Position numbers and translations under genes: made by a program. From the NCBI GenBank assembly GCA_017407835.1, contig JAFQVV010000026.1, positions 186,001-250,000 on the forward strand: a stretch of DNA of 64,000 nt, written 5' to 3'. The number at the start of each line of letters is the position of its first letter. Position 1 is the stretch's first letter. Shown in pieces: positions 18,320 to 33,972 of the stretch. The notes below the pieces were generated by a model. That model was not told the DNA's origin. It saw only the letters and a program-made list of their open reading frames with translations, and did not search any database. This stretch comes from Clostridia bacterium. Lineage in GTDB: Bacteria > Bacillota > Clostridia > Oscillospirales > CAG-272.

Positions 18320-19903
18320 TTAACTACCCCAAACACCGTTTAGGCTCAGAACAAAGCCCCGCTCATATTCGGGGCGAGCTTTCACAGCGGCCTGTGCTGC
18401 GGCACGGGTGAGATTGAGGTCGGCGGGCTCGTATTCCCGGTCGGCAAACCGATCCAGGTATGTGGCCACACGGTCGCGGATTGCGTTATCCCCGGCTTCA
18501 TCGTAGAGACGGAGCAGGGCGTGCGTGGAGCTGGCCGAAAGGTGCCCGATCATGTCCACATCCACCGTTTCCAGCCGTCGGTCCAAGTAGGCATCCACGT
18601 TGTAGTCGGCAATGATTCGGTCAAAGTCGGCGAAGAGGAAAATGCCCACAAACAGAACGACCGCGGCAAAGATCAAGGCGGCAGTGCGCATCCGTGGAAG
18701 AAACTGATGCAGAAGCCCCAGAAGAAAGATCACAGCCAGAAGTCCCATGAGCCAAAGTACATAGATCCGTTTGCGAGAAAGGCCGTAGCTGTCGATGTAG
18801 AGCAGCATTTTGGCCGCAGCGGAGGTCAAAAGAGTCAGGGTGAAGAAAGCCAGCAGAACGGCGGTGATCCGTGCGGGGATGGGGAGACGGTCATTTTTGC
18901 GTCGGGTGAAGAGGGTAATGCCCCACAGTACCGCCGCATTGATCACCGCCACGGTGCAGAGTTCAAAGAAGCCCTGCCGCGCGTAGTCGGCATAAGTCAG
19001 CCCCTCAGGGAGAGTGCCCGAAAATCCCCCAATGAAGTAGGGGATCTGGGAGAGGAAGAAAAGCAAATACAGGCAGAGCAGGGGAAAGACGGCGGCACAG
19101 ACCATGGGCACGGGAGCAAAACGGAGCGAGGTCTTCAAGCGCTCTGCCGTTTCCTCCTTCACCCCGCCACCAAGTGCATGGGTGCCGCAGGCCCAGAGGT
19201 GGCTAAAGACATAAAACCCGAGAAGAATGCCAAAGGGCACCGAAAAGAGAAGAGTCCCCACGTTGATTTCAGGTAAGCCCATGAGGATATTCTCAAACAT
19301 TCGCTCAAAGCTGCTGTCTGATACCAGGAGAAGTAGCAGTACTACAGCGGTAGGGATGACGGCGATGCCAAGCCCCAGCAAAACTGAACCTACGGCGCGG
19401 CCGATCCCCTTCTTCTTGGAGGACAAAATGGCATCGGGGGCGGCACCGTATTCCGAGAGGGGCATGGCAAACACCGCCTTGGCCAGTTCGGGAGCGAAGC
19501 ATTCGCCGGGGGCACGGCCGCTCTCGCCGCAGATCAGATGCACGATATACATAAATCCCAGCAGGACAAAGGCATGGGAGAGCAGGTATACATCCCCTGA
19601 GTCAAAGAGCAGTCGGGGCAGGGCAAAGAGGGGGAGAAGCGCATAAAGGGCGATTTTTTTCGAGGTGAGTCGAATAGAAAAACGCCGCAGATAAAAGGGG
19701 GTGCCCACCAGCAAAAGGGTTAGTGCAAGCCATATCAGCAAGTCACGTCCCTCAAAGCTGCTGTTGAGGAAGAGGATGCCCAGCAGGCAGACGGCGGCTG
19801 CCATGAGACGATCGGCGGGAAGAAACTGTCGTTTGGGCCGAGGAGCAGTCACCGCTGCGGCGGAAGCTTGCATTTCGGGGGTGGGATTGGGCGTAGAATT
19901 CAT
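18320..19903 (-). CDS. Polytopic membrane protein, DUF4173/DUF4153-like
   Basis: About 527 residues with some twelve transmembrane helices. The C-terminal half has the DUF4173 landmarks: LFTRRKNDRLPIPARI, YIDSYGLSRKRIYVLWLM and a final periplasmic region with DRIIADYNVDAYLD. Function of the family is unknown; genes are often next to XRE regulators and DUF2975 proteins, as here. Start ATG 19903 is chosen because AAAGGAGAG lies seven bases upstream; a longer frame back to 20047 lies within the preceding gene. The start overlaps that gene's stop (ATGA). Confidence 0.8.
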   Translation of the reverse strand: MNSTPNPTPEMQASAAAVTAPRPKRQFLPADRLMAAAVCLLGILFLNSSFEGRDLLIWLALTLLLVGTPFYLRRFSIRLTSKKIALYALLPLFALPRLLFDSGDVYLLSHAFVLLGFMYIVHLICGESGRAPGECFAPELAKAVFAMPLSEYGAAPDAILSSKKKGIGRAVGSVLLGLGIAVIPTAVVLLLLLVSDSSFERMFENILMGLPEINVGTLLFSVPFGILLGFYVFSHLWACGTHALGGGVKEETAERLKTSLRFAPVPMVCAAVFPLLCLYLLFFLSQIPYFIGGFSGTLPEGLTYADYARQGFFELCTVAVINAAVLWGITLFTRRKNDRLPIPARITAVLLAFFTLTLLTSAAAKMLLYIDSYGLSRKRIYVLWLMGLLAVIFLLGLLHQFLPRMRTAALIFAAVVLFVGIFLFADFDRIIADYNVDAYLDRRLETVDVDMIGHLSASSTHALLRLYDEAGDNAIRDRVATYLDRFADREYEPADLNLTRAAAQAAVKARPEYERGFVLSLNGVWGS

Positions 19904-20205
19904 TCTTTTCTCTCCTTTTCGATGTGATTGCGCAGGGTAATGACTGCGCTGCAGAGCAGGTAGGCACCGGGACAGATCAGCATCCATAAATAGGTTCCCC
20001 CCAGCCCCCAGTTCCGGCTGAGGGGACCGGCGAAGGCGATATACCACAGCAGGCCGATGATCACTGCCGCGGCAAAACAGCCCACCGTCACGCGAAGATA
20101 GCCCCGTTTTGTCCGGTTACAGGCGGGGATCAGATTGCCCAGTAGATAGAGCAGGGTGAAGAGCAGAAAGAACATGGCCAGAAGCATCGTGTCACGGGGA
20201 TTCAT
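19900..20205 (-). CDS. Small three-helix membrane protein
   Basis: About 101 residues: MNPRDTMLLAMFFLLFTLLY starts a first helix, then a basic loop (NRTKRGYLR), two more helices and a charged tail (NHIEKERKE). I do not recognise the family. ATG 20205 has GGGAGG six bases upstream. It overlaps the XRE gene upstream by a few bases and the DUF4173 gene downstream by four, so the four genes 20931 to 18320 form one tightly packed operon. Confidence 0.65.
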   Translation of the reverse strand: MNPRDTMLLAMFFLLFTLLYLLGNLIPACNRTKRGYLRVTVGCFAAAVIIGLLWYIAFAGPLSRNWGLGGTYLWMLICPGAYLLCSAVITLRNHIEKERKE

Positions 20206-20206
20206 G

Positions 20207-20425
20207 TTAACCTCCCGTTCCCTCGTCAGGAACATATTCTAAAATATCGGCAGGCTGGCAGTCCAGGGCGGCGCAGATGGCATCCAGTGTGGAAAAACGG
20301 ATGGCCTTGGCTTTATTCGTTTTGAGAATAGACAGATTGGCCTGGGTGATTCCCACCGCATCGGCCAGCTCACCGAGAGAGATCTTGCGGCGCGCCATCA
20401 TCACATCCAAATTTACAATGATCAA
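20207..20425 (-). CDS. XRE/Cro-type HTH regulator (YozG-like)
   Basis: 72 residues: nearly the whole protein is one helix-turn-helix domain (ISLGELADAVGITQANLSIL, recognition helix QANLSILKTNKAKAI). The opening MIIVNLDVMMARRK and ending CQPADILEYVPDE match the YozG-like group that accompanies DUF2975 proteins. Start is TTG 20425 with GGAGGGA eight bases upstream; the homologous N-terminal sequence supports it. It follows the DUF2975 gene by 14 bases. It probably regulates its own operon. Confidence 0.88.
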   Translation of the reverse strand: MIIVNLDVMMARRKISLGELADAVGITQANLSILKTNKAKAIRFSTLDAICAALDCQPADILEYVPDEGTGG

Positions 20426-20439
20426 GGTGATCTCCCTCC

Positions 20440-20931
20440 TTATACGGTAAAATCGTTTTCGGCTTTGATTGCGGTAGCTTCCTCAATGACGTTTTTCACC
20501 ACCCGCAGAGCAATGCCGATGAAGAATGCGGCGAAGGCAACAGCAAAGGAGAAGCGGAAATAGTAGCCGACCAAGAAGAAGCAGGCAGCTTCACCGATGC
20601 AGCACCAGGAGAGAACACGCAGACAAGCAACACTTGCAGCGGTGAAAATCAGTTCACGACGCACCCGGTGCAGCAGCACAAGCATGGCTCCGTCCGCCAG
20701 ATAAGCAATGGCTATTCCGGCATAAATCACAATCCAAAGTATGACCGGAATTCGAGCAAGCAGGTTAGGATCGCTTGCTGTGTTCCAGGAGTAGACGACC
20801 TGTACATAAAGGCGAAGAATACGAGGCAAAAAAACGGTCAGCAGAATGAGAATGGGGAAAACCGCGATAGAGAGTACATAAGAGATGGTTGTGGAGGCAC
20901 GTCGACTGACACGGGGAAGAACAGCGCGCAT
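20440..20931 (-). CDS. DUF2975-family membrane protein
   Basis: About 163 residues with four transmembrane helices. The layout and last segment (FAAFFIGIALRVVKNVIEEATAIKAENDFTV) are typical of DUF2975, a family nearly always encoded directly upstream of a YozG-like XRE regulator, as here. The pair may form a membrane-linked sensing switch, but this is inference. Start ATG 20931 follows AGAAAGGA by eight bases; the ORF continues 57 bases further back without a ribosome binding site. Confidence 0.82.
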   Translation of the reverse strand: MRAVLPRVSRRASTTISYVLSIAVFPILILLTVFLPRILRLYVQVVYSWNTASDPNLLARIPVILWIVIYAGIAIAYLADGAMLVLLHRVRRELIFTAASVACLRVLSWCCIGEAACFFLVGYYFRFSFAVAFAAFFIGIALRVVKNVIEEATAIKAENDFTV

Positions 20932-20966
20932 GAAAATCATTCCTTTCTGTGTGGCTTTGTGCATCC

Positions 20967-20995
20967 AGTATAACACAAAAAATTCCATTTGTCAA
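20967..20995 (-). promoter_or_regulatory. Sigma-A promoter of the DUF2975-XRE operon
   Basis: Minus strand: TTGACA (20995-20990), 17-base spacer, TATACT (20972-20967), 36 bases before the start. Confidence 0.85.
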
Positions 20996-21050
20996 TAATA
21001 ATTTATCGAAAAACAATAATATTTTCCCGAAAGTCGATTTTTACTTTGGG

Positions 21051-21079
21051 TTGACATGAAGGGAAGAATGTGCTAAAAT
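21051..21079 (+). promoter_or_regulatory. Sigma-A promoter of the divergent MBOAT pair
   Basis: TTGACA (21051-21056), 17 bases, TAAAAT (21074-21079). The predicted start site near 21086 rules out translation from the TTG at 21098 having a leader with a ribosome binding site. Confidence 0.85.
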
Positions 21080-21127
21080 ATATTTATTGGATTTATTTTG
21101 TCGGAACTTTCATGTGAGGTGATGCTC

Positions 21128-22528
21128 GTGCTTTTTGCAGCGCCGTCTTTTTTGTTTTTGTTTTTGCCGCTGACGTTGGCTATCTATGCCCTGGTTCCGC
21201 CGAAATTCAGGCGGTATGCTTTGCTGGCTTTTAATTTGATCTTTTATATTTTCGTCTGCCGCAACGCACCGATCAGCATTTTGCTGGCATTTCTCACGGC
21301 TGCTTTTACCTACAGTGCGGGATTTGCTGTTGCCGTTACCCATCAGCGAAAGACGGTCTTGCTGTCCGCGCTTGTGTTGGGCGTTGCTTTTTTGATCTAT
21401 CGTCTTTTCCATCACAGCTCGCTCTTGGCCGGCAGTCCGTATTATCCTCTGGGGGCATCTTTTTATTTGCTGTCGGCGCTGTCTTATTTGGTCGATATTT
21501 ATCGCAATGATGCACCGCACGCCAAAAATTTTGCCGATCTTCTGCTGTATATGTTCTTCTTTCCCACCATTATCGTTGGCCCAATCATCAAATATAAGGA
21601 TTTTGGTGTCCTGCTTGAGGGGGAGATGCTTTCGCTTGAGCGCTTCAGTGTCGGCGTTAAATGTTATATTTCCGGTTTTTTGAAGCGGCTGTCCGTTTCG
21701 GCTGTTTTGGGGTATGCACTTGAGCAGCTGCTTGCGGCCGCAGGTGATAGGTTTGGCATTTGGATTGCGTTGTTGGCCTTTGCACTGATGTGCGGATACC
21801 TGTTGTTTGCAATCGGCGGCTATTACGATATGGCATGCGGCCTGATGCTGATGTTTGGGATTGGGCCGCCCCGTTATCCTTCTGCCGAAAAAATTCGGAT
21901 TGTTTGTATCTGGACAAGCTTCCGGGCGTGGATGACCGATTATTTGGTCCATCCCATTCTTCGCAAACGGCAGATCCCCCGTGTACTTCGTTACGCACTT
22001 GCCGGTCTTGTTGTGTGCTGTTTCCCCCTGCTTTGGCTCAAAACACGGTGGTATTTGCTGCCGATTGGAGCAATCATCATCATTGGCGGGGGACTTTATT
22101 TGCTCATGCTTCGGCAAAATCTTCGTCATAATCCGCGGTTGAATCGTGTTGTTCGCATTTTGGGGCGTGTTGTACTATGTTTATTCATGATTCTGTTTAT
22201 CGCTCTTCTCCCCTTTGAGCGGGCAGGGGACATTGCCGAGTTTTGGCAGATGCTCCTGCAGGAAGGCTGGACACTGCCTACGCAAACTGTTTTGCTCGGA
22301 TTATCGGTTCTTAAATATCTGCCGATCGGTCTCATCGGTCTTGGCTGCCTGTTCTTTTTGCGTGAAGGTTGTACCGAAAAAGAGAAAAGAATCCCCATTG
22401 CCTTGGGCGGTCTGCTGCGCGGCTGTGCATTCCTTTTGGTGATGTGTTCATTTGCTTTTTCAATTTTGCATCTCATGCCGCAGTTCCCGGAGTGTGCTGT
22501 CAACGCTTTGCCGTATCTTGTGTTTTGA
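21128..22528 (+). CDS. MBOAT-family (AlgI-like) membrane protein lacking both conserved histidines
   Basis: About 466 residues, polytopic, clearly related to the intact MBOAT at 31272: MLFAAPSFLFLFLP aligns with MVFSSLVFLCIFLP, PLGASFYLLSALSYLVDIY with PIGISFYTFQALSYTLDIY, and FFFPTIIVGPIIKYKDF with LFPQLIAGPILRYRDL. But the block FWRRWHISLGTWFRDY is reduced to IWTSFRAWMTDY and the catalytic TGIWHGASWN is replaced by FPLLWLKTR. Both histidines are gone, so acyl transfer is unlikely. GTG 21128 is chosen by GAGGTG spacing and by alignment with the intact paralogue. The frame is otherwise undamaged. It is followed after 33 bases by its DHHW-like partner. Confidence 0.8.
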   Translation: MLFAAPSFLFLFLPLTLAIYALVPPKFRRYALLAFNLIFYIFVCRNAPISILLAFLTAAFTYSAGFAVAVTHQRKTVLLSALVLGVAFLIYRLFHHSSLLAGSPYYPLGASFYLLSALSYLVDIYRNDAPHAKNFADLLLYMFFFPTIIVGPIIKYKDFGVLLEGEMLSLERFSVGVKCYISGFLKRLSVSAVLGYALEQLLAAAGDRFGIWIALLAFALMCGYLLFAIGGYYDMACGLMLMFGIGPPRYPSAEKIRIVCIWTSFRAWMTDYLVHPILRKRQIPRVLRYALAGLVVCCFPLLWLKTRWYLLPIGAIIIIGGGLYLLMLRQNLRHNPRLNRVVRILGRVVLCLFMILFIALLPFERAGDIAEFWQMLLQEGWTLPTQTVLLGLSVLKYLPIGLIGLGCLFFLREGCTEKEKRIPIALGGLLRGCAFLLVMCSFAFSILHLMPQFPECAVNALPYLVF

Positions 22529-22561
22529 TTTTTGTCCATTCGGATGAGAAAGGAGTCGGTC

Positions 22562-24805
22562 TTGAAAAACTCTCGGACAGTTCAGTTGCTGATGACGGTC
22601 ATTTTCCTCGGAATCATCCTCAGCTGTACCGCTTATTTCGGTATTACGGCACTGATCGCATTGCCGAACAGTTACCTTGAAACACCGTACCATGAGGAAA
22701 ATGCTCTGCCGGATACATTGAATACTTTTGATCGAGGGGTGTATTTGGATGCACGCCAGCGACAGCTGATGATTTCTTTGGATTATCGGCTCTTTTCTCA
22801 GGTTTCTTCTTCTGAGGTAGTGGTAGGGAAAGAGGATTTTCTTTTCCCGCTCCGTGAAGACGATTACGATTATCTGGCAGATTATACAGGAGATGCGTTA
22901 TATGATGATGCAATGCTGGATTTGCTTGCCAAATCTATCGAAAAACGAAGTATTGCCTATGCCAATGCAGGTGCAGAATATCTTTTGGTTGTGATTCCAA
23001 ACAGCCAGACGATATACGGGGAATATTTGCCGTCAGCCGTCTCTTCTGCCGCAGGTGAAAATCGTCTGTCACAGCTGAGCGCATATCTCGCAGACCTTGA
23101 CACCGTCAATTTCCTTGATCTGACACAAGCTATGCAGGATGCAAAATCCGATGGTGTGCTTTTCAATAATACCGAAAATTCGATCAATGCACTGGGTGCA
23201 AATACCGTCTATCGTGCCGTCCTTGAACAGCTGCCCGATGATCTGCAAGGACGTTATTCTCCCATTGCGAGCGATTCAATTAACATTTTTACGCATTATA
23301 CCGGCGGGAAAGCATTGGCAAAACTGGCAGGTATTGAGGATCTTGTCCGCAACCGCACATTATCTTTGGTCAACGACACTGAGCTGAAGTACAGGGTGTT
23401 AGAGAAAATTGCGGGCATGGAAATTACATATATTAAAGCAGAGTATAAGGATGAAATTTCCAATCGTCCGGCACTGTTGTTGGAATTCAGCGATGAATGG
23501 GACAAAATCCAACTGATGCCCTATTTTTCCAACACCTTCGGCACGGTGGCATATAAAACATATCCGTCTTTCAGTTTATATGCCGTTGACTATCTCAAGC
23601 CTAATCTTGTCATCCAATTTGTCCACGAAAATGAGCTGGATTCTTTGCTCGATTCGGCAGTTCTCCTCTCCTATAACGACGGACTGAAAGAGGGCGACGA
23701 TCCCTTTGTCGCCATGGCACCGAGCGTACTTGGCATTGCGCAGAATGCTGCCGATCGAATTTGCATTGTCGGCAGCTGTGAGGCAGAATCGGTAATTTCC
23801 CTCGAAGGCGAAGGCATAATTTCCGCTCAAGTCAGCGCACGCAACGAACGGTTTGTCATCGAAGCTGTCTTTGAGACAGGAACGCAATCAACAGTTCGTC
23901 TGATCGCTTCGGTGGAAGGGAAGATCGAGAGCAGTGCTACCGAACTTGAACTTTCGCTTGGTGCCTTTGAAGGCGAGCAGAAAGTTATGGTAGGAAGCAA
24001 TTCCATGCTTTTCCATACCGGAGCGCTTACGTTGACCAATATCGGCGCCTATTCACAAACGCAGCTTCAGCGCATCCGTACGCGATACCTTAAAGAGGCG
24101 GAAAATTTTTCGACGGCAGTTGGAAAAAAAGTCCGCTCAGTTTATGTTTATATTCCCGATAAAACCAGCATTTATCGTGATGCGCTTGCTGCACAAAATA
24201 AGCTTCCCCTGCAAACGCGTCTCTCTCAACTCAGAGAAACGTTGGCTAACGCGGAGTATGTTACCGTGTTTGATCTTTCCCAAAGCCTGCCGTTTATCAG
24301 ACCGGCAGATCGGCTGTATCTGCAGACCGGGTCAACGCTTTCACCTTTTGGCGCGTTGTCAGTTTATCGATTGATTATGGATGAATTGGCCGAAGACGAT
24401 CCGGCGATGGTTCCTTTGACATATCAGGATTATGACTTTGTGCAGGAAACCGTTCCGGGCGGCGATTTGATTGAATTGCTTGGCCTTGATCCTGCGAGTA
24501 TTACCGAAAAAATCATTACGCAAACACCCAAAAAATCTTCCGTCAGCTGTACTGCTCTGGATGGAGAGACGGTGGTTGATGAAAGCGAAGCACTCTTGTA
24601 TATCAACACCGACGAGAGTCTGCCGGTTGCTATCGTGCGGCGTGATCTCTTCGGAACGCCGCTCCTGCCGTATTTGGCAGAACATTTTTCGCGTTTATAC
24701 GTATTGGAAGAAGGCAATTTTGAGCTTTCCGATGCCTTTATCCGCCAGGTAAATCCCGACTATATTTTTACTGTTTCCCATGAATATTATCTGCCCCTGA
24801 ATTGA
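22562..24805 (+). CDS. Tandem-duplicated DHHW/AlgX-like exported protein lacking catalytic residues
   Basis: About 747 residues: one N-terminal membrane anchor (about 8-30) and a large extracellular part built of two related halves. The halves align: YLLVVIPNSQTIY with SVYVYIPDKTSIY, NRLSQLSAYLADL with TRLSQLRETLANA, ALGANTVYRAVLEQL with PFGALSVYRLIMDEL. In the intact homologue (32671) this stretch reads RTDHHWTARG, and the SGNH serine is in VVRDSYGHAF. Here the first is NNTENS and QTGSTLS, and the second is EFSDEWDK and VRRDLFG, so neither half keeps DHHW or the serine. A beta-rich region lies between the halves. TTG 22562 follows AAAGGAG, as in the homologue. Confidence 0.75.
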   Translation: MKNSRTVQLLMTVIFLGIILSCTAYFGITALIALPNSYLETPYHEENALPDTLNTFDRGVYLDARQRQLMISLDYRLFSQVSSSEVVVGKEDFLFPLREDDYDYLADYTGDALYDDAMLDLLAKSIEKRSIAYANAGAEYLLVVIPNSQTIYGEYLPSAVSSAAGENRLSQLSAYLADLDTVNFLDLTQAMQDAKSDGVLFNNTENSINALGANTVYRAVLEQLPDDLQGRYSPIASDSINIFTHYTGGKALAKLAGIEDLVRNRTLSLVNDTELKYRVLEKIAGMEITYIKAEYKDEISNRPALLLEFSDEWDKIQLMPYFSNTFGTVAYKTYPSFSLYAVDYLKPNLVIQFVHENELDSLLDSAVLLSYNDGLKEGDDPFVAMAPSVLGIAQNAADRICIVGSCEAESVISLEGEGIISAQVSARNERFVIEAVFETGTQSTVRLIASVEGKIESSATELELSLGAFEGEQKVMVGSNSMLFHTGALTLTNIGAYSQTQLQRIRTRYLKEAENFSTAVGKKVRSVYVYIPDKTSIYRDALAAQNKLPLQTRLSQLRETLANAEYVTVFDLSQSLPFIRPADRLYLQTGSTLSPFGALSVYRLIMDELAEDDPAMVPLTYQDYDFVQETVPGGDLIELLGLDPASITEKIITQTPKKSSVSCTALDGETVVDESEALLYINTDESLPVAIVRRDLFGTPLLPYLAEHFSRLYVLEEGNFELSDAFIRQVNPDYIFTVSHEYYLPLN

Positions 24806-24839: not shown

Positions 24840-24868
24840 TTGACAAATCAAACTTGTTCGTGTATAAT
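24840..24868 (+). promoter_or_regulatory. Sigma-A promoter of the Rrf2-rubrerythrin unit
   Basis: TTGACA (24840-24845), 17-base spacer, TATAAT (24863-24868): full consensus. An Rrf2 operator may overlap it, but no clear inverted repeat is visible. Confidence 0.88.
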
Positions 24869-31271: not shown

Positions 31272-32645
31272 GTGGTTTTTTCCAGCCTCGTTTTTTTGTG
31301 TATTTTTCTCCCTGTCTCGTTGCTGCTTTATTATCTTGCCCCAAATCTTAAGGCGAAGAACATCATCTTGACCTTGCTCTCAATTTTGTTTTATGCATGG
31401 GGAGAGCCGGTCTACTTTATTCTGATGATTGTATGCTCCTACGTCAATTATCTGGCAGCAAAGATGATCAGCAGCCGAACACAAAAAAGGAAACCGATTT
31501 TAATTGTATCCCTGATTATCAGTCTTGGTTTTTTGGTCATATTCAAATATGCCGGATTGATTGCAGAGACTGTAAATTTGCTGCCGTTTATCTCTATCCC
31601 TGTGCCGCAGATTTCTCTGCCAATCGGTATTTCTTTCTATACCTTCCAAGCCCTGTCCTATACGCTTGATATCTATTCGGGCAGGGAAGAGCCACAGAAG
31701 CGTTTTGGCGATTTTCTGCTTTATGTTTCTCTTTTTCCGCAGCTTATCGCAGGACCGATCCTGCGTTATCGCGATCTGGCATCGCAGCTGACCTACCGCG
31801 AGCATACTATGCAGCGCTTTTATCGCGGAACCGTCAGATTTTCTGTCGGCCTTTGCAAAAAAGTAATCATTGCAAACCACGCAGGAGAGCTTGCGGGGGA
31901 GATGCTGGCAGGTTCTTCCTCTTTCGGCATGTGGTACGGGATTGTCATGTTCGCTGTGCAGATTTATTTTGATTTTTCCGGCTATTCGGACATGGCGATC
32001 GGTCTTGGACGGATGTTTGGCTTTGAATATACCGAAAACTTCAATTATCCGTATATATCCCGCTCTGTTACCGAGTTTTGGCGGAGATGGCACATTTCGC
32101 TTGGCACTTGGTTCAGGGATTACATTTACATTCCCATGGGCGGCAAATACAAACATCAATTGCTCAACATCTTTACCGTCTGGGCGCTGACGGGGATATG
32201 GCACGGCGCCAGCTGGAACTTCCTTTTCTGGGGCTTGTACTACGGCATTCTGCTTGCCATTGAAAAAACCTTTTTGTATAAATTGCTTGAGCGTATGCCG
32301 AGCGTGATTTCTTGGCTTTATACGATGCTGACGGTGCTCATCGGCTGGACGCTCTTCTATTTCACCGATATCACCCAGTGCTTTGATGCGCTCAAAGTGA
32401 TGTTCTCCTTTGCGGGCGGTATAGGCTCCGATGTTCTCGTTTCTCTGAAAACCAATGTACTCTTCCTCGGCATAGCGGCAGTGGCCTCAACCCCGTTTGT
32501 AAGTCGAGCTGTAAAAAAATATCTACCCGATGATTCGGTCATCGCCGTGACACTGGGGACCTGTTTTAATTTGTTTGCATGGATTATCTGTACAGTTCTT
32601 CTTGTCAATGCGTCCTATAATCCTTTTCTGTATTTCCGTTTTTGA
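31272..32645 (+). CDS. MBOAT-family O-acyltransferase (AlgI/PatA-like), intact
   Basis: 457-residue polytopic membrane acyltransferase that moves acyl groups across the membrane for transfer to exported glycans. The two family histidines are present: EFWRRWHISLGTWFRDY (about residue 278) and LTGIWHGASWNFLFWGLYYG (about residue 313). Other landmarks are PIGISFYTFQALSYTLDIY and YFDFSGYSDMAIGLGRMFG. It starts with GTG after GGAGGA. It is followed after 25 bases by a DHHW-type extracellular partner, forming a complete surface O-acetylation module. The glycan target is unknown. Confidence 0.93.
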   Translation: MVFSSLVFLCIFLPVSLLLYYLAPNLKAKNIILTLLSILFYAWGEPVYFILMIVCSYVNYLAAKMISSRTQKRKPILIVSLIISLGFLVIFKYAGLIAETVNLLPFISIPVPQISLPIGISFYTFQALSYTLDIYSGREEPQKRFGDFLLYVSLFPQLIAGPILRYRDLASQLTYREHTMQRFYRGTVRFSVGLCKKVIIANHAGELAGEMLAGSSSFGMWYGIVMFAVQIYFDFSGYSDMAIGLGRMFGFEYTENFNYPYISRSVTEFWRRWHISLGTWFRDYIYIPMGGKYKHQLLNIFTVWALTGIWHGASWNFLFWGLYYGILLAIEKTFLYKLLERMPSVISWLYTMLTVLIGWTLFYFTDITQCFDALKVMFSFAGGIGSDVLVSLKTNVLFLGIAAVASTPFVSRAVKKYLPDDSVIAVTLGTCFNLFAWIICTVLLVNASYNPFLYFRF

Positions 32646-32670: not shown

Positions 32671-33972
32671 TTGAAAAAGCGATATTTAATTTCTGTCGTT
32701 TGTTTTCTTGCCCCGCTTGTCTTTATGTTTTTTGTGGGAATATTGGATGAAGATCGGAGTTTTTCATCGTCGGAAAACCGAGAATTGTCCACAAGTCCGA
32801 CACTTTCGCTCTCAAGCTATCTGGATGCCTCATTTATGCAGGACTTTGAATCCTACTATACCGATCAATTCCCCTTCCGGGAAACCTTCATGTCGCTCTC
32901 AAAGCGCTACAACAGCATCATGTACCCCAATTTTCTGCTCTCGGATGATGATGTAATCAGTCTGCCGCCGACCAATATCAATCCCACAACAACACAAGAG
33001 GGAGGCGACTCGCCAGCCCCCTCCACCAATTCTCCCACAACCGATCAGGTTGATACCGAAAGTTTGCAGGGAAGTATGATCTACGGCGGGCGTATCATGG
33101 AGATCTTCAACGTCTCTGACAGTACAGCGCAGCGCTATGCGAATGTCATCAACGCACTGTATGCCGAGTGCGGAGAACCCGATACCTATGTACTGATTCC
33201 GCCGCCGGCATACACCCTCTATGCACCAGAGAATCATATCAATGAAAAAACCGATTTTGATCAGGCTATGTTGGTAGTTTCTGCTGCACTTGACGGTCCG
33301 CAGCTCATCGATCTGCGCGAGACATTTGATGACCGCAAAGACGAAGCCCTATATTTCCGCACCGACCACCACTGGACAGCGAGGGGCGCATACTATGCCT
33401 GCAACGCATTTCTGCAGGCAGCAGAGAATATGACGCTTCCCGCACTGGATACCTACCAAAGCGGAACTCGCGATGGCTTCCTCGGCTCGCTGTACCGTGC
33501 CATTATGGCCAACCAGGCCAGTGCTTTGATCGAGAAAAATCCCGATACGCTGGAATATTTCTATCCCTTTGCCGATGCCGAGGTGATCACCTATTCAAGC
33601 GCGGCGATGATTGATCCGCTGGAGCGTGAGGTGCTCTATCCCGATTATAATGCAGATACTAACCTTTACTGCGTTTATATGGGCGGAGATATTGCGCTGG
33701 GGAAAATCACGACACAGACCAAGAACGGGAAGAGTATCTTGGTAGTGCGCGATTCTTACGGGCATGCTTTTGTTCCGTTCCTGATCGATGCATACGAGAC
33801 AATCTATATTGTCGAACCGCGATATTTTAATCGAGATACCAACCCAATGGAACTCGGCAGCTTTTTCACCGAGCATGATGTGGATACCCTTTTGTTCTTG
33901 GGTTATCCGAATATGTCGGTGGGCGGATATTGGGATACCATTTCCTATTATCTTGAACAGCTTTTGCCATAA
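32671..33972 (+). CDS. DHHW/AlgX-like extracellular O-acetyl transfer protein
   Basis: 433 residues: one N-terminal membrane anchor (YLISVVCFLAPLVFMFFVGI), a Thr/Pro/Ser spacer (about 105-125) and an SGNH-like domain. The motif FRTDHHWTARG (about residue 230) gives the catalytic Asp/His and the family name; VVRDSYGHAF (about 353) supplies the serine. The N-terminal SENRELSTSP is typical of DHHW proteins. It should take acyl groups from the MBOAT partner upstream and place them on a surface polymer. It starts with TTG after GAAAGGAGGG. A 19-bp terminator follows. Confidence 0.9.
   Translation: MKKRYLISVVCFLAPLVFMFFVGILDEDRSFSSSENRELSTSPTLSLSSYLDASFMQDFESYYTDQFPFRETFMSLSKRYNSIMYPNFLLSDDDVISLPPTNINPTTTQEGGDSPAPSTNSPTTDQVDTESLQGSMIYGGRIMEIFNVSDSTAQRYANVINALYAECGEPDTYVLIPPPAYTLYAPENHINEKTDFDQAMLVVSAALDGPQLIDLRETFDDRKDEALYFRTDHHWTARGAYYACNAFLQAAENMTLPALDTYQSGTRDGFLGSLYRAIMANQASALIEKNPDTLEYFYPFADAEVITYSSAAMIDPLEREVLYPDYNADTNLYCVYMGGDIALGKITTQTKNGKSILVVRDSYGHAFVPFLIDAYETIYIVEPRYFNRDTNPMELGSFFTEHDVDTLLFLGYPNMSVGGYWDTISYYLEQLLP

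Follow-up and report, generated by a model that had tools for sequence, protein, structure and literature searches.

What does a polymer acyltransferase pair still do once both of its members have lost their active sites? This question is raised by a two-gene operon in a stretch of 64,000 nucleotides from a Clostridia genome (contig JAFQVV010000026.1; hereafter the window). The first gene encodes a membrane protein of the MBOAT family (here, the pseudo-MBOAT) and the second an anchored protein with two AlgX-like SGNH domains (the partner; Table 1). As a rule, bacteria acylate wall polymers, among them alginate, cellulose and peptidoglycan, through MBOAT-SGNH pairs. Selection has preserved the dead pair in no fewer than 34 gut clostridial species, and its role at the cell surface is therefore probably non-enzymatic.

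Loss of the acyl relay in both proteins

The first protein had been described in the initial annotation as an AlgI framework lacking both family histidines, and this was borne out by an alignment of 34 pseudo-MBOATs and 26 intact paralogues, all from one bacterial family. The catalytic His of the WHG block was present in 26/26 intact paralogues and 0/34 pseudo-MBOATs (L304 in the window protein), and the motif-1 His of WRRWHIS in 26/26 and 1/34, respectively (W262 in the window). The other Trp and Arg residues of WRRWHIS were also replaced in most pseudo-MBOATs, and the Gly following the lost catalytic His was changed to Arg or Lys in 33 of the 34. A C-terminal FxYxxF acyl-shuttle Tyr has been put forward as a defining feature of bacterial MBOAT-SGNH pairs and was shown to carry the acetyl group in PatA (PMC12148441). 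This third catalytic element was not kept either (13/34 pseudo-MBOATs vs 26/26 intact paralogues); the tail of the window protein lacks the first Phe of the motif, and in pseudo-MBOATs the former shuttle site is preceded by MPQ(F/Y)P, a new motif. Structural positions such as GP151-152, G231, D234 and Y272 were retained in all 34 proteins.

The match of the pseudo-MBOAT to Pfam family PF03062 (MBOAT) exceeded the cut-off (35.3 vs 27 bits) but covered profile positions 80-223 only; since it stops at position 223, the C-terminal His region lies outside it. DltB was the best match among solved structures in a PDB profile search and was also found by Foldseek with the predicted structure (E 3e-6, template modelling scores 0.57/0.63), while the NCBIfam DltB model, whose cut-off is 375 bits, gave a score of 39. 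DltB, the closest solved structure, belongs to the DltB/DltX/DltD D-alanylation complex, from which the window pair differs by its lack of catalytic residues; no DltA, DltC or DltX genes were seen next to it.

The partner had been interpreted as a tandem AlgX-like duplication in which both halves lack DHHW and the Ser of RDSYG, and the alignment agrees. Neither half keeps the catalytic Asp, His and Ser: the DxHW block reads TENSIN in the N-terminal and TGSTLS in the C-terminal half, and RDSYG reads DEWDK and RDLFG, respectively. PF16822 (AlgX) matches the protein in two stretches (71.1 bits vs a cut-off of 26.5). A match to PF14286 (DHHW) was not found in the partner; the intact protein encoded at 32671-33972 scores 157.8 bits with this family. 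The nearest folds of the partner model (predicted local distance difference test score, pLDDT, 86) were PatB1, AlgJ and the DHHW protein 4nzk (E 1e-9 to 6e-9), and AlgX was found as well. The DxHW block of the N-terminal half has become NNTE(N/D)S-x-N, which is almost invariant across 40 loci, and its Ser block S-x-EWD in most loci. Four residues of the old N-terminal active-site block (N203, T204, N209 and G212) are invariant wherever a pseudo-MBOAT adjoins the partner (class A, see below).

No conserved His or Cys column that might replace the lost residues was found in the pseudo-MBOATs (best His column, 7/34) or in the partners, whose best columns, H/Y355 (21/34) and H/R245 (20/34), are not at catalytic positions. 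H708 is conserved in double-domain partners but lies outside both catalytic blocks. On this survey of aligned columns in both proteins, a supply of the catalytic residues from elsewhere in the fold, a possibility named in the initial annotation, was rejected.

The order of genes (MBOAT, then anchored extracytoplasmic SGNH protein) and the folds are those of the O-acetyltransferase pairs PatA/PatB, AlgI/AlgX(AlgJ) and WssH/WssI. Of the features of such acyltransferase pairs, gene adjacency was found in class A loci, but not the MBOAT catalytic His, the conserved shuttle Tyr or the Asp/His/Ser triad of the SGNH protein. Across class A, the whole relay has been dismantled, with the MBOAT His pair and the SGNH Asp-His/Ser lost and the shuttle Tyr not conserved, while folds and gene coupling persist. 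With the donor step, the shuttle and the acceptor step all gone, the pair cannot credibly transfer acyl groups on its own. Very unlikely, too, is an acyltransferase whose catalytic residues would come from a third protein or, within a mixed complex, from an intact paralogue. Pseudoenzyme assemblies of this kind exist, prozyme being an example (PMC5201418), but the SGNH triad has been lost together with the His pair and the shuttle Tyr, and no conserved neighbouring gene supplies them.

Distribution, order of loss and selection

A contig profile search of 84,980 genomes for relatives of the pair yielded 39 loci, all in metagenome-assembled genomes of Clostridia/Oscillospiraceae and mostly from the herbivore gut. 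The combination of pseudo-MBOAT and partner (class A) was found in 33 of them, giving 34 species together with the window; the initial annotation had proposed to look for co-occurring pairs with the same losses, and 33 more thus came to light. Since 34 independent species carry the dead pair, it reflects more than chance. The pseudo-MBOATs form one clade (support 100/100). In random samples of genomes of the order and class outside the window's family, nothing scored above 240 bits with the pseudo-MBOAT profile, compared with 295-590 bits for pseudo members.

In class A, the partners of the window genus and of L061-L064 have both halves, each of them dead, and the other partners have the N-terminal half only (349-426 residues at the longest start), such that the C-terminal half is dead or deleted wherever a pseudo-MBOAT adjoins. 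Class B (L069, L080, L088, L091, L095 and, from genome G017, L048) comprises tandem AlgX proteins that share with the window partner the arrangement transmembrane segment-SGNH-immunoglobulin (Ig)-SGNH and a dead N-terminal half (HNTENAxN), but differ by a live C-terminal half (TDTHW, RDSYS) and by having no adjoining MBOAT. Locus L065 (G055) also has a live C-terminal half; its contig ends upstream, where the neighbour is not readable. Two such tandem genes follow one another in three class B loci, and the pseudo-MBOAT profile matched no MBOAT in the L091 genome.

In the tree of partner domains, N-terminal halves form one group and C-terminal halves another, and the domain duplication is therefore older than the split. 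From this and from the distribution of dead and live halves over classes A and B, we infer that the active site of the N-terminal half was lost first, followed by those of the MBOAT and the C-terminal half and, finally, by deletion of the C-terminal half.

The ratio of non-synonymous to synonymous substitution rates (dN/dS) was 0.08-0.24 for the pseudo-MBOAT, 0.08-0.16 for the partner and 0.06-0.11 for intact paralogues; the values are approximate, with synonymous sites partly saturated, but all lie far below 1. Both halves of the double-domain partner are under constraint, and stop codons were not found in the frames of relatives. The dN/dS near 1 and frequent stops that the initial annotation had named as signs against its reading were therefore absent. 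Open frames and low dN/dS indicate that the genes are not pseudogenes, and together with 34 independent loci they rule out a pseudogene or assembly artefact. The earlier statement that these are no ordinary pseudogenes is strongly supported by purifying selection, one ancient clade and constant two-gene coupling. Decay towards loss, to which the inactivation and later deletion of the C-terminal half in most lineages might point, has next to no probability and is refuted at the sequence level: dN/dS is 0.08-0.24, stops are absent, residues are invariant over deep divergence in 34 species, and promoter and start signals are conserved.

Architecture and surroundings of the locus

The coordinates of the operon and its single shared promoter were confirmed as annotated initially, but both starts had to be amended. 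Judged from homologue starts and ribosome-binding sites, the pseudo-MBOAT probably starts at GTG 21128, with GAGGTGAT at 21116, and the partner at TTG 22562, with AAAGGAG immediately 5' of it. The Rrf2 gene 3' of the operon has its own perfect promoter at 24840. The inverted repeat upstream (conserved form TTATCG-N5-C(G/A)ATAA) separates the operon from a divergent DUF2975-HTH_26-DUF4153 cluster (18320-20988, minus strand) and is possibly the operator of the HTH_26 regulator encoded at 20207-20425. A search of Rfam for an upstream RNA element gave no match.

Table 1. Features of the operon and its upstream region (positions in the window).
Feature	Position	Strand	Basis or remark
Imperfect inverted repeat TTATCG-AAAAA-CAATAA between divergent promoters	21003-21019		conserved in upstream sequences of four species (G000-G003)
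Sigma-70 promoter of the operon, TTGACA-17-TAAAAT, near-perfect	21051-21079	+	same position in three other species of the genus
Pseudo-MBOAT, 466 residues, GTG start; multi-pass membrane protein, DltB/AlgI fold (AlgI/PatA/DltB type)	21128-22528	+	profile, alignment and predicted structure
Site of WRRWHIS block, residues 258-264; Trp262 in motif-1 His column	21899-21919	+	alignment
Leu-Lys, residues 304-305, where catalytic His-Gly stood	22037-22042	+	alignment
New C-terminal motif MPQFPxxA, then tail LPYLVF at FxYxxF site	22475-22525	+	alignment
Partner, 747 residues, TTG start; membrane anchor, pseudo-SGNH (AlgX-like), Ig-like domain, second pseudo-SGNH	22562-24805	+	profiles, alignment, predicted structure
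N-terminal membrane anchor helix, residues 4-32	22571-22657	+	predicted structure
N-terminal pseudo-SGNH domain, about residues 51-375	22712-23686	+	alignment and fold comparison
NNTENSIN, residues 202-209, remodelled DxHW active-site block	23165-23188	+	nearly invariant in 40 loci
DEWDK, residues 311-315, at site of RDSYG nucleophile block	23492-23506	+	alignment
Ig/FnIII-like beta sandwich between both SGNH domains, about residues 385-470	23714-23971	+	predicted structure; Pfam Big_6 matches weakly in a relative
C-terminal pseudo-SGNH domain	23984-24802	+	alignment and fold comparison
TGSTLS at TDTHWT site of C-terminal half (window genus)	24326-24343	+	alignment
RDLFG at RDSYG site of C-terminal half (window genus)	24641-24655	+	alignment

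In all class A loci measured, the pseudo-MBOAT and partner genes lie side by side or overlap, and all other neighbours vary. Downstream of the pair, the window genus and a few others carry genes for Rrf2 and rubrerythrin, and an ABC (ATP-binding cassette) transporter accompanies the pair in another clade. In about six loci, PAP2 and PlsY-type genes stand beside it; in the lineage concerned (L066, L074, L078, L083, L086, L092), the surroundings of the pair include genes for a PAP2 phosphatase and for a PlsY-type glycerol-3-phosphate acyltransferase, along with two more conserved genes. A small protein of ~130-150 residues without a Pfam match is encoded near the dead pair at L044:7045-7449, with similar ones in L051, L062, L063, L071, L073 and L084.

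Related arrangements were seen elsewhere. In another family of the order (f10, genus g99), a second, half-dead MBOAT-SGNH pair (L148:1836-5407 and L149:5458-8962) keeps the catalytic His (LWHK) and has Arg at the motif-1 His, and its partner reads TDNYLN, with the Ser lost. It is possibly an intermediate or a parallel case, its placement in the tree not being decisive. In L149, the gene adjoining the half-dead pair encodes a sulfatase fold and may be similar to lipoteichoic acid synthases (LtaS-like). On other contigs of the window genus (L096:4451-7040 and L097:2299-4951), an intact single-domain AlgX-like protein is paired with a conserved protein of ~510 residues that has no Pfam match and is not an MBOAT.

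Possible roles of the dead pair

A non-catalytic role in the envelope, exerted through binding in the remodelled pocket, offers the simplest reading of these data. The pseudo-MBOAT would provide a platform in the membrane that keeps the anchored pseudo-SGNH protein on the outside, where its pocket (NNTENSLN/EWD/SNTF) would bind, but not acylate, a glycan that is lipid-linked or part of the surface; the module may thus scaffold or retain a cell-envelope polymer or act as its receptor. The initial annotation had likewise suggested a repurposed envelope module, a putative assignment strongly supported by purifying selection, the ancient clade, the coupling and the new residues that stand unvaried where the active site used to be; its narrower candidates were a sensor, a glycan or lipid binder and a competitor of the intact pair. 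We give about an even chance to the full claim that an MBOAT-SGNH polymer acyltransferase has given rise to a non-catalytic envelope module made up of these two proteins. Several observations weigh against it. The neighbours are lineage-specific and give no shared functional hint; the pseudo-MBOAT model is of moderate confidence (pLDDT 76); the pseudo-MBOAT changes at about double the rate of intact MBOATs, so that parts of it may be under looser constraint; and the conserved active-site block could equally mean new chemistry.

Such new chemistry, or transport, would involve, for example, an MBOAT funnel that passes a lipid or ion by way of the conserved Arg/Lys, or NNTENSLN as a catalytic or metal site. 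New polar residues that hardly vary within the former active site (N203, T204, E205, S207, N209), together with the near-invariant new Arg/Lys next to the lost MBOAT His, are consistent with it. A known catalytic motif is missing, however, as is a conserved His or Cys column to act as base or nucleophile in either protein, and the fold is unchanged; we consider a new activity improbable. The same low likelihood is given to the related view that the relay was converted whole into a module at the cell surface that performs transport or a pocket chemistry of its own, via NNTE(N/D)S-x-N and the Arg/Lys, rather than into a passive scaffold.

Somewhat less doubtful, though still unlikely, is a pseudoenzyme regulator that binds the glycan or the docking surface of intact MBOAT-SGNH pairs and thereby lowers or tunes acylation. 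The window genome has five intact MBOATs, with an intact MBOAT-SGNH pair, whose MBOAT gene spans 31272-32645, 9 kb from the dead one, and another, stronger MBOAT match was found in 31 of the 33 distinct pair-bearing genomes (catalytic motifs were read in the 26 intact sequences only). A precedent is the mammalian pseudo-MBOAT HHATL, whose catalytic His is replaced by Leu and which is reported to be a negative regulator of HHAT (PMC5831804). Like the pseudo-MBOAT, HHATL is conserved, has a hydrophobic residue in place of the His and has been proposed to act non-catalytically; it is, however, a single eukaryotic protein, whereas in the window the partner is dead too and the shuttle Tyr is not kept. 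In the literature searched, a bacterial MBOAT-SGNH pair without any catalytic residue was not described, and HHATL was the sole dead MBOAT named. The co-occurrence in 31/33 genomes says little because MBOATs are already present in 212 of 248 genomes of the family. Dependence on intact MBOATs was rejected as an explanation, the co-occurrence not being clearly above this background. In the 2.2 Mb assembly of genome G203 (loci L125/L100), moreover, a dead pair and a DHHW protein were found but no other MBOAT was detected, and dead and intact pairs are not co-located in other species. Competition with intact pairs is accordingly possible but not favoured.

Dead, yet coupled and constrained in 34 gut species, the pair forms a natural separation-of-function set. 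It can reveal the non-catalytic work of MBOAT-SGNH proteins, such as polymer binding, docking and complex assembly, and the class B sisters, with their live C-terminal half and no adjoining MBOAT, make the order of loss testable.

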